DNA from: Lysobacteraceae bacterium
Lineage (GTDB): Bacteria; Pseudomonadota; Gammaproteobacteria; Xanthomonadales; Xanthomonadaceae
Direction of reading: 5' to 3'
NCBI GenBank assembly: GCA_003241895.1
Contig: QBLY01000008.1
Coordinates: 1-64,000, forward strand
Length of the DNA stretch: 64,000 nucleotides
Shown: in pieces, positions 13,077-41,396 of the stretch
Position numbering within the stretch: position 1 is the first letter of the stretch
Layout of the letters: every line of letters begins with the position of its first letter
The notes under the pieces: generated by a model
Databases searched by the model: none
The model's input: only the letters and a program-made list of their open reading frames with translations
What the model was told of the DNA's origin: nothing
Made by a program: the position numbers and the translations under genes

Positions 13077-13249
13077 GGTGGCCTTGTGATTCTCAGGTGC
13101 GCGGGGTCGGAACTGCCCCCTGCGCCGGGTCAGCCATGTTAGCCACCCCGGGCGCCCCTGCGTTAGGTATAAGCCTGTGCATAACCGGTGGGCATCTTTG
13201 CCCCCCACCCTCTCAAATCCTGCGACTGCTGGGACTTTCCGCCTGAACG

Positions 13250-13482
13250 CACGTGCGCTCGGCGCACGACATGGGGGCGTGAGGCAGCGCCGCCCCCCAC
13301 ACAAGGGGGTCGCCTGCCCGGTTTCGCGCCAGCGCCATCCCTGGCAGCAAAAGCCGGGTCGCTCCCGGGCTTCCTGCCTTCAACTTCAGGTGACCCCCTT
13401 AGTGTGTGTGCCGTCGCCCGACTGCCGATGGCAAACCGCAGCAAGGCAGAAGCTAGCGCTGCGCCGATGTCTCTTACCGACC
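13250..13482 (-). repeat. Structured dispersed intergenic repeat, copy 1 (reverse orientation)
   Basis: Read on the minus strand it aligns by eye with copies 2 and 3 over its whole length: GGTCGGTAAGAGACATCGGC end, core GGCTTTTGCTGCCAGGGATGGCGCTGG, and CATGTCGTGCGCCGAGCGCAC end. Long inverted arms at 13298-13316 and 13387-13408. Confidence 0.85.
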
Positions 13483-21153: not shown

Positions 21154-21706
21154 ATGAACACCGTTACCAAATGCAGTAGTGAGCCTTGGCACAAGGGAAA
21201 GCTGACTGGTCAAAAAGCACCGCTCAGGCTCTGCGACATCTGGGCCATTCGCGTGCGGCTCCAGCTTGGCCATGAGACGCGAGACCTCGCCCTGTTCAAC
21301 CTTGCCATCGATTCGAAGCTCCGAGCGTGTGATCTAGTAAAGCTGAAGGTGCGCGACATTGGACATGGCACACAGATCGCCAGCCGGGCGATCGTCATGC
21401 AGCAGAAGACCAAGAAGCCAGTTCAGTTCGAGATAACGGAGCAAACCAGGAAAGCGGTCCGAGCATGGATTGATCTCGCAAAGCTTCAACCGGATAGCAC
21501 GCTGTTCCCCAGTCGCATACATGACTCACCGCATCTCTCGACTCGGCAGTACGCGCGAATTGTTCACCGCTGGGTTTCGGGAATCGGATTAGATGACACG
21601 GCGTATGGCACACATACGATGCGACGGACCAAGGCGTCACTCATCTATCGTCGGACGAAGAACCTTCGGGCGGTCCAACTCTTACTTGGCCACACCAAGC
21701 TGGAGA
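21154..21706 (+). pseudogene. Truncated tyrosine recombinase/integrase
   Basis: SKLRACDLVKLKVRDI (catalytic Arg), GTHTMRRTKASLIYRRTKNLRAVQLLLGHTKLE (HxxR...LGH), then interrupted at the IS end; catalytic Tyr segment absent. Confidence 0.8.
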
Positions 21707-22197
21707 GGGGTTCTACCCCGATTCTGCGGACACTTTCACTAAGACCCATACTGGGTCAAAGGAGTGTCCATGTCCAAGCGCAAGCGTTACAGCCCTGAAT
21801 ACAAGCACGAGCTGGTCGAACTGGTCCGCGGATCGGATTCGAGTTGCCGGAAGATCGCCCTGGAAGTCGGTGTTACCCCGGCGTCGCTAACCCGCTGGGT
21901 GAGGGAAGCCGAGGCCGGCGGACCCAAAGCCTTCCCCGGCGGCGGAACCCCGCGTGACGAGGAGCTCGCCCGCACCAAGCGCGAGCTGGCACGGATAGCC
22001 AAGGAGCGTGATTTCCTAAAAAGCGCGGCGGCGTACTTCGCGAAGCAATCACCGAACGGTACGCGGTGATTGAGTACTGCCGCAGGGACTTTCCCGTACG
22101 GATGATGTGCCGTTGCCTGGAAGTGTCGACGAGTGGTTTCTACGCCTGGTCCGGGCGCAAGCCGGGACCGCGGGCGCAGGACAATGCGCGGTTGCAT
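21707..22197 (+). mobile_element. Truncated IS3-family insertion sequence
   Basis: Left end GGGGTTCTACCCCGATTCTGCGGACAC, complete OrfA, start of OrfB ([45 protein letters not shown]), then resemblance stops. Confidence 0.8.
21770..22069 (+). CDS. IS3-family transposase OrfA
   Basis: [48 protein letters not shown]; possible frameshift run CCTAAAAAG near 22016-22023, with frame 1 open from there into OrfB. Confidence 0.85.
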
Positions 22198-22421
22198 ATT
22201 GGACTTGTAATAGGAACATTGTGCGCCGCGCACTGGATCGGAGACGCAATTTTTCGAAAGCTCCAGTACAGAGCCAAGTGGTTGGGTCTAGTGTTGGGCA
22301 TTGCGGCCGCGGCAATCATGATCTTTGTCATGGGACGTGGGACGTGGGCTGTACGATGTGCTCATAGATCTTCCTGGCATCGGTTGGCGGCTCGAAAGGC
22401 AAATGTCATAGGACGAGTAAG

Positions 22422-22481
22422 GTCTAAATACTTGCTCATGCCGAAGCCGCTTCGAGGCTCGGCCTAATTCAGGCGTTGAAC
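22422..22481 (+). other. Integron attC-like recombination site
   Basis: GTCTAAATACTTGCTCATGCCGAAGCCGCTTCGAGGCTCGGCCTAATTCAGGCGTTGAAC: 60 nt, central imperfect stem GCCGAaGCC/GGCTCGGC with an unpaired A, and R'-type GTTRRRY (GTTGAAC) after CTAATTCAGGC. Confidence 0.6.
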
Positions 22482-22491
22482 GGCTGCTCCT

Positions 22492-22720
22492 GGCCGATAT
22501 GAGACATCGGCGCGGCGCCAGCTTTTGACCTCGCTACGGTGGGCCATCGGCAGTCGGGGCGGCGGCCCACACACAGGGGTGTTGGCTGACAGTGGAGGCA
22601 GGAGGCCGTAACGGGTGGCCTTTGCTGCCAGGGATGGCGCTTAGCAAGAGGCCGCTCAGCCAACACCCCTGTGTGTGGGACGACGCTGCCGTACAGCCCC
22701 ATGTCGTGCGCAAAGCGCAC
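22492..22720 (+). repeat. Structured dispersed intergenic repeat, copy 2 (forward orientation)
   Basis: GCCGATATGAGACATCGGC end hairpin; perfect 23-bp inverted arms CCCACACACAGGGGTGTTGGCTG (22566-22588)/CAGCCAACACCCCTGTGTGTGGG (22657-22679); core TTTGCTGCCAGGGATGGCGCT; end hairpin GTGCGCAAAGCGCAC. Confidence 0.9.
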
Positions 22721-22734
22721 GCGCACCGAAATGT

Positions 22735-22769
22735 CGGAAAAGACGAAGGGCGCCCTAGGGCGCCCTTCG
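22735..22769 (-). terminator. Rho-independent terminator of the rpsF-rpsR-rplI operon
   Basis: Perfect palindrome CGAAGGGCGCCCTAGGGCGCCCTTCG followed on the minus strand by TCTTTTCC. Confidence 0.75.
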
Positions 22770-22792
22770 AGGTACAGCGTGTAGCTGGAAGA

Positions 22793-23242
22793 TCAGGCTT
22801 CCGGTTCGACCACGACCTTGACGGTGGTCTGGACGTCGGCGTGCAGGCGCACTTCGATGTCGTACTCGCCGGTGCGGCGCAGCGCGCCTTCCGACATGAC
22901 CACTTCGCTCTTGTCGAGCTTGAAGCCGGCGGCCGTGAAGGCCTCGGCGATGTCGCGCGGACCGACCGAACCAAACAGCTTGCCTTCGGTGGAAGCGTTG
23001 GCGGCGATGGTGACCGACGCGCCTTCCATCTTGTCCTTGCGGGCCTGGGCACCGGCCAGGACCGCATCGGCCTTGGCTTCGTACTCGGCGCGCTTGGCGT
23101 CGAAGCTGGCGATGTTGTTGGCGGTGGCCGGAACGGCCTTGCCGAACGGCACCAGGAAGTTGCGGCCGTAGCCCGGCTTCACGTCGACCAGGTCGCCCAG
23201 GACGCCAAGGTTCACGACTTTCTGCAGAAGGATCAATTTCAT
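22793..23242 (-). CDS. rplI: 50S ribosomal protein L9
   Basis: [40 protein letters not shown]. Confidence 0.97.
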
Positions 23243-41079: not shown

Positions 41080-41357
41080 GGCCGATAAGAGACATCGGCA
41101 CGGCACCAGCTTTTGACCTCGCTGCGCTGTGCCATCGGCAATCAGGGCGACGACACACACATATAGTGGGTCTGAAGTGTAGGGCAGGAGGCCCGGAACG
41201 GCGTTGCCCATGGATGGGCGAGTGTCGCGTAGGGCAGGATGCCCGAGAGCGACCCGGCTTTTGCTGCCAGGGATGGCGCTAGCAAGAAGCCGGGCAGACC
41301 CACTATATGTGTGGGGCGGCGCTCGCCTTAAGGCAGCATGTCGTGCGCAAAGCGCAC
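41080..41357 (+). repeat. Structured dispersed intergenic repeat, copy 3 (forward orientation, internal duplication)
   Basis: GCCGATAAGAGACATCGGC hairpin; 19-bp perfect arms CACACATATAGTGGGTCTG (41156-41174)/CAGACCCACTATATGTGTG (41295-41313); core GGCTTTTGCTGCCAGGGATGGCGCTAG; GTGCGCAAAGCGCAC end hairpin. Confidence 0.9.
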
Positions 41358-41396
41358 GCCGATCTGGGCGGAGAAGCTTGAAACGGCGACAGGCAC

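Follow-up and report, generated by a model that had tools for sequence, protein, structure and literature searches.

A dispersed, mobile-like repeat of the Lysobacteraceae with a conserved one-strand fold and RsmA/CsrA-type hairpin loops

The stretch of DNA analyzed here (the window) comprises 64,000 nucleotides of contig C52 from an Arenimonas genome (Lysobacteraceae; 3.1 Mb in 53 contigs) and contains three copies of one repeat, located at positions 13249 to 13482 on the minus strand (copy 1) and at 22492 to 22725 and 41080 to 41359 on the plus strand (copies 2 and 3). They scored 112.9, 127, and 116.8 bits, respectively, with a covariance model (CM). Copy 2 lies beside rplI; a phage-type integrase gene (PF00589; E value, 1.4e-17) is found just upstream, also beside rplI, at 21154 to 21798, and the dnaB arrangement that neighbors rplI in relatives was not recognized in the window. 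Read along the plus strand, copy 2 starts with an end hairpin, GCCGAT-ATGAGAC-ATCGGC (22493 to 22511), followed by a left variable arm, CACACACAGGGGTGTTGGCTGA (22568 to 22589), an RsmA/CsrA-type hairpin, GGC-AGGAG-GCC (22597 to 22607), the invariant core TTTGCTGCCAGGGATGGCGCT (22621 to 22641) with a second hairpin of this type, GCC-AGGGAT-GGC (22627 to 22638; CANGGANG), the right variable arm that pairs with the left one (22656 to 22677), and the terminal hairpin GTGCGC-AAA-GCGCAC (22706 to 22720), where the element ends. Between its arms (41156 to 41174 and 41295 to 41313), copy 3 has four such hairpins, GGGC-AGGAG-GCCC (41182 to 41194), GCCC-ATGGAT-GGGC (41206 to 41219), GGGC-AGGAT-GCCC (41232 to 41244), and, inside the core, GCC-AGGGAT-GGC (41266 to 41277), two more than in the layout proposed in a preliminary description of this DNA; its terminal hairpin is again GTGCGC-AAA-GCGCAC (41343 to 41357). 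On the minus strand, copy 1 has its left (5') arm at 13387 to 13408, hairpins GGC-AGGAA-GCC (13368 to 13378) and GCC-AGGGAT-GGC (13334 to 13345), its right (3') arm at 13298 to 13316, and a terminal hairpin GTGCGC-CGA-GCGCAC (13253 to 13267).

The preliminary description had claimed three copies sharing one layout, with a nearly invariant core and with arms that differ between copies and match within each copy, and in these respects it was correct. The 21-nucleotide core is identical in the three copies and occurs exactly three times, when 0.01 occurrences would be expected even with three mismatches allowed. The arms of copy 2 pair without mismatch and those of copy 3 at 19 of 19 positions, while pairing in copy 1 is interrupted by a single bulged T and a single A.C mismatch, and both the end hairpin and the terminal GTGCGC-nnn-GCGCAC hairpin were found as claimed. 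However, the layout present in all three copies (outer part, inner stem module, and terminal hairpin) represents only a half-element.

Conservation centers on an inner module of some 140 nucleotides, in which a closing stem is followed by GAAGTGGAGG(g)CAGGANG(c)CCGGAACGG, at least one further hairpin, and the right arm. The base of the closing stem is constant (GCGaCG.C / GGCGGCGC, with fixed A.G mismatches), and its upper part is variable. In the window copies the module is enclosed in an outer frame made of the GCCGAT...ATCGGC hairpin and the terminal hairpin; this frame also exists without the module (L009 to L011), and the module is found in other outer frames too (L023, L024, and L035). 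A second frame with GCCGCCCTGCRATGCAGTAG arms and other flanks (L023, G000:C50:75032; L024, G000:C17:24190) bears the same left-hand hairpin, GAAGTGGAGGCAGGAGGCCGGAACGGC. Complete elements were found in A. metalli and measure approximately 212 bp with one module or 470 to 500 bp with two modules arranged head to head, with the terminal hairpin GTGCGCnnnGCGCAC on both sides, and one of them forms a branched hairpin over its whole length. In one element of genome G027 (contig C1), the complete terminal inverted repeats are matched. With GTGCGCnnnGCGCAC and these matched ends, complete elements have the terminal inverted repeats without coding capacity that are typical of miniature inverted-repeat transposable elements (MITEs).

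When copy 2 was compared at the DNA level with 61 related genomes, matches were obtained in nine, all from the same genus, and the exact core pattern likewise assigns the family to Arenimonas, with A. metalli, A. malthae, and A. caeni among the species that have it. A covariance model built from 24 copies (R1) recovered in the window only the three copies and, weakly, the strand opposite to copy 2, and it then detected many copies missed by the DNA search, including some in another genus. With a second model (R2), built solely from held-out copies detected with R1, we extended to 397 genomes of the family the search that the preliminary description had proposed and found matches in at least 28 of them, belonging to at least 5 of 54 genera. 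These are lower bounds, because no more than eight candidates were scored in each genome. There are 6 module copies in the window genome, and the maximum was 19 (G003). Five copies of the Arenimonas repeat were located in a metagenome-assembled genome labeled Rhizobium sp. (B101_concoct.bin.4; JAIBEO01 contigs; L101 to L104 and L106), which groups as the same genus as the window genome and is probably mislabeled. Other Lysobacteraceae (L188 to L199, e.g., G031, G088, G188, and G190) have tandem GGA-hairpin units with AAGTGTCGCG...GAGCGACC linkers, some of which appear inside coding regions.

To what extent the fold is conserved can be seen in the paired positions. Among the 24 copies of the genus, 97.5% of the pair cells were standard pairs versus 87.0% in shuffled controls, and 18 of 42 pairs had changed on both sides. 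The equivalent values were 95.1% versus 67.6%, with two-sided change in 34 of 42 pairs, for the 19 copies outside R1 (set A2) and 92.1% versus 62.0%, with 37 of 42 pairs, for the 48 copies outside R2 (set A3); in this last set, moving the partner by one to three columns reduced pairing to 31 to 46%. Alignments fitted to a model lean towards that model, but there are hardly any gaps in the arms. Shuffling leaves relatedness in, and there is no tree-based null behind the covariation figures. If one strand is selected for its fold, G.U is tolerated on that strand but A.C is not, while copying from arm to arm leaves both equally, and the unique leftovers in the arms amounted to 15 G.U versus 3 A.C (binomial P = 0.0075), 14 versus 1, and 40 versus 3 in three counts, the last one becoming 30 versus 3 after one G.U-rich column was dropped. 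This excess indicates that one particular strand folds, the one that reads GGA in the loops. It supports folding of that strand without distinguishing RNA from single-stranded DNA, and part of the excess could also arise from a strong strand bias in mutation. Fold energy was discarded as evidence of strand: it beats 200 of 200 shuffles on both strands (z scores of -4.9 and -6.6), and the fold of the antisense strand is no less favorable, so that energy alone does not pick a strand. With covariation in held-out copies far above the shuffled and slid controls, and G.U far above A.C in the arms, the idea already put forward that the fold is under selection receives strong support.

The folding strand keeps constant loops on changing stems. 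In held-out copies the loop CA(N)GGANG was present in 48 of 48 first hairpins and 46 of 48 second hairpins, over stems as diverse as GGCC, GGAC, GGGC, AGGC, GACC, GCCC, and GGTC, among others; in a copy from another genus (G152) the first stem has been wholly replaced, from GCACGGCC/GGCCGTGC to GCAAAACC/GGTTTTGC, and the loop was kept. The window copies contain eight CA(N)GGANG-type hairpins, two to four per module and with stems of three to four pairs, all on the folding strand and none antisense. Dinucleotide shuffles gave a mean of 0.06 and a maximum of 2, with none of 2,000 reaching 8. Seven such hairpins were counted in the remainder of the 64-kb window, both strands together, and no enrichment of GGA-loop hairpins outside the repeats was seen in sample stretches of the genome.

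The consensus described for RsmA/CsrA sites is (A/U)CANGGANG(U/A), with ANGGA in the loop of a three-pair stem (PMC5668361; PMC6849547), and SELEX gave RUACARGGAUGU, mostly with six-nucleotide loops on stems of no more than four contiguous pairs (PMC7652899). The module loops (CANGGANG or CAGGANG, closed by C-G) match this consensus, a resemblance at the level of sequence for which there are no binding data. CsrA is encoded in the window genome (PF02599; E value, 3.2e-25), and GGA loops on short hairpins, multiple sites, and the host protein, which are features expected of an RsmA/CsrA-binding RNA, are present. Xanthomonas RsmU, an RsmA-binding small RNA from a 3' untranslated region (3'UTR) that falls outside all Rfam families, still bound RsmA when its four GGA motifs were mutated (PMC7694677), and therefore GGA motifs alone are no proof of a binding mode. 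The preliminary description mentions neither the CANGGANG loops, nor the complete elements with modules head to head, nor the occurrence of the family in other genera. Overall, we favor, as probable but far from settled, a dispersed, mobile-like repeat of the Lysobacteraceae that carries an RsmA/CsrA-binding RNA module, in which transcription, binding, and effect are inferred.

No Rfam family matched the window at the gathering threshold. None of the Rfam Csr/Rsm families reached its cutoff; rsmX remained below it in all of 41 genomes, with a single weak match at element locus L008 (28 bits versus the 56 needed) that was absent from 15 other element loci. Neither did the element match phage, plasmid, or viral collections. 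The known decoys CsrB/CsrC and RsmX/Y/Z share with the family several small hairpins with CAGGANG/CANGGANG loops on changing stems (PMC7652899), but those RNAs usually come from a single dedicated gene, or a few, controlled by GacA/UvrY, whereas the repeat described here is dispersed in multiple copies and has terminal hairpins as well as a long closing stem. RsmU comes from the same bacterial family, is also outside Rfam, and has three or four GGA motifs and a 3'UTR origin (PMC7694677); however, it is a single locus limited to Xanthomonas, and no sequence comparison is behind the likeness.

Among mobile repeats, REP, BIME, and REPIN sequences are similar in being intergenic palindromes with head-to-head pairs and presence or absence between strains. 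REPs are recognized by a palindrome with an adjacent 5' GT(A/G)G tetranucleotide (PMC3686654) and by more than 100 copies (PMC2817692). The tetranucleotide was not found at the element ends, where the context of the terminal hairpin is TCGTGCGC, the family has about 5 to 20 copies per genome, the element is much longer and has multiple hairpins, and no RAYT neighbor was found among 20 Y1_Tnp loci with flanks of about 1.5 kb; a REP/BIME mobilized by RAYT was rejected on the grounds of tetranucleotide, copy number, and neighborhood. The lack of a known family, as initially stated, holds for Rfam and REP. We also rejected GTGCGCnnnGCGCAC as a free REP, its other matches being mostly one conserved coding-like stretch, with the match at L123 left without assignment. 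MITEs are also short, noncoding, intergenic, with inverted ends, and nested in other repeats. In this family no target duplication was visible at borders that are not base exact, and no parent transposase is known, with Y1 the only class searched. The family differs from MITEs in having hairpins as its ends and a constant interior within a long stem of variable sequence. Integron attC R and L boxes (GTTRRRY/RYYYAAC) were not seen in the stem bases, which were read by eye only. Both strands of a near-perfect 30-bp palindrome at L218 (548 to 614; GATCCGGGGTCAGAGTGCATTTATCTTC...) matched a microRNA model, and the match is spurious.

Presence and absence can be seen at the rplI site. Several Arenimonas species have only a short spacer there, while it is occupied in G000, G024, and G027; the occupant in A. 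metalli and G024 is an element with one module, set within a TGTGGGAGGGACTTCAGTCCC palindrome; the same site being occupied or empty between species, copies come and go. Copies were also found at many unrelated loci. The rplI spacer (window positions 22300 to 22800 and the orthologous sites L214 to L232) is a hot spot, with unrelated hairpin repeats in G003, G012, G011, and G026, and several of the spacer repeats of other sequence have long variable arms and ACATGGATGT/CATGGATGG loops resembling the family. Complete elements at L169 and L173 (G027:C12 and G024:C20) lie within an inverted pair of TGTGGGAGGGACTTCAGTCCCGACCC, a REP-like repeat, a setting that suggests insertion into hairpins. In six complete G027 elements no target duplication was visible by eye, with borders that are not base exact. 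Regarding neighboring genes (called by a simple GC3 composition rule), elements are mainly at 3' ends, the gene pointing towards the element in 24 cases versus 12 on its 5' side and 27 versus 12 on its 3' side. The module strand showed no sense bias (about 36 sense and 39 antisense gene neighbors) and is mostly antisense at rplI; with no sense preference, a simple read-through model is not favored.

The main rival is a substrate for transposition on single-stranded DNA, i.e., a selfish hairpin repeat in which the one-strand fold serves a Y1/HUH transposase that reads the GGA loops, the likeness to RsmA sites being coincidental. We doubt this explanation, but it has to be taken seriously. Dispersal, intergenic location, presence or absence at rplI, head-to-head pairs as in BIMEs, the lack of visible target duplication, single-strand folding, and the lack of sense bias all agree with it, and Y1 transposase genes were present in 22 of 28 Arenimonas genomes. 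Binding of single-stranded DNA by an HUH transposase is another possible source of the one-strand constraint and of the tolerance of G.T. Yet no transposase was found near the element ends (Y1 was the only class searched), and none of 20 Y1_Tnp loci had an element end or a module within approximately 1.5 kb on each side. The GTAG/GTGG tetranucleotide is missing, up to four different hairpins per copy keep CA(N)GGANG, more than a transposase needs, and the match to the published RsmA consensus covers conserved and free positions alike.

How the arms diverge bears on a second alternative, a palindromic repeat without RNA function in which template switching during replication copies one arm onto the other. 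It would account for the perfect match between the arms of many copies and for the matched terminal repeats of the G027 C1 element, and 20 of the 31 two-sided arm changes between near-identical copies are transversions, which fit arm-to-arm copying as well as compensation, so that some copying of single changes cannot be excluded. However, one to four pairs separate the arms of near-identical copies, most often with both partners changed, and the arms are therefore not replaced as blocks, contrary to the earlier suggestion that the arm might be rewritten as a unit. Template switching also predicts equal numbers of G.U and A.C leftovers, against the 40:3 and 15:3 observed, and accounts neither for loops that stay constant while their stems change nor for the A.G mismatches fixed at the base of the stem. 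It is already disfavored, and we regard it as unlikely. Two copies (G000:C2 and G023:C59; L008/L068 and L046) combine arms of different subtypes that do not pair; they are probably recombinants and imply that not all copies are maintained. A REP-like element for stability or termination at mRNA 3' ends, with RsmA irrelevant, would fit the strong hairpins and the location at gene 3' ends, but it is very improbable, given that no T run follows the terminal hairpin, orientation is independent of gene strand, and the conserved GGA loops remain unexplained.

In the favored reading, that of an RsmA/CsrA-binding module, the conserved part would be a one-strand RNA with a long closing stem of free sequence and two to four small hairpins projecting from it, each one presenting an A(N)GGA loop closed by C-G, as in an RsmA/CsrA site. 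The module would be transcribed and then bound by RsmA/CsrA, both steps being inferred, and might either hold RsmA in the manner of CsrB/RsmZ-type decoys or mark the transcript that contains it. In head-to-head pairs, transcription from either side would place one module in the binding orientation. Movement would probably depend on the hairpin ends being acted on in trans by a transposase, although none has been identified. Several points weigh against this reading: no transcript data are available, the module strand is not sense biased, the antisense strand is no worse in energy, HUH-bound DNA could impose the same constraint, two copies have nonpairing arms, the transversions allow for copying, no Rfam Csr family reached its cutoff, and RsmU is bound without its GGA motifs. 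More tentatively, and as a possibility that may well fail, the repeats could be a mobile family that spreads RsmA/CsrA decoys, moving between gene ends with either strand serving as module, so that copy number tunes free RsmA.

Provided that the modules are transcribed and bound by RsmA, a regulator acting globally on metabolism, motility, and virulence genes would have its level determined by how many copies of a mobile repeat are present. No such connection of mobile DNA with the Csr/Rsm network was found in the open-access literature searched, where nothing relevant appeared on CsrA with REP, MITE, or dispersed repeats. Because no rsmX match reached the cutoff in the Arenimonas genomes searched, the repeats are candidates for the missing decoys. 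Even without RsmA, they clearly exemplify a dispersed repeat whose one-strand fold has been retained in at least five genera, and they are searchable with a covariance model.
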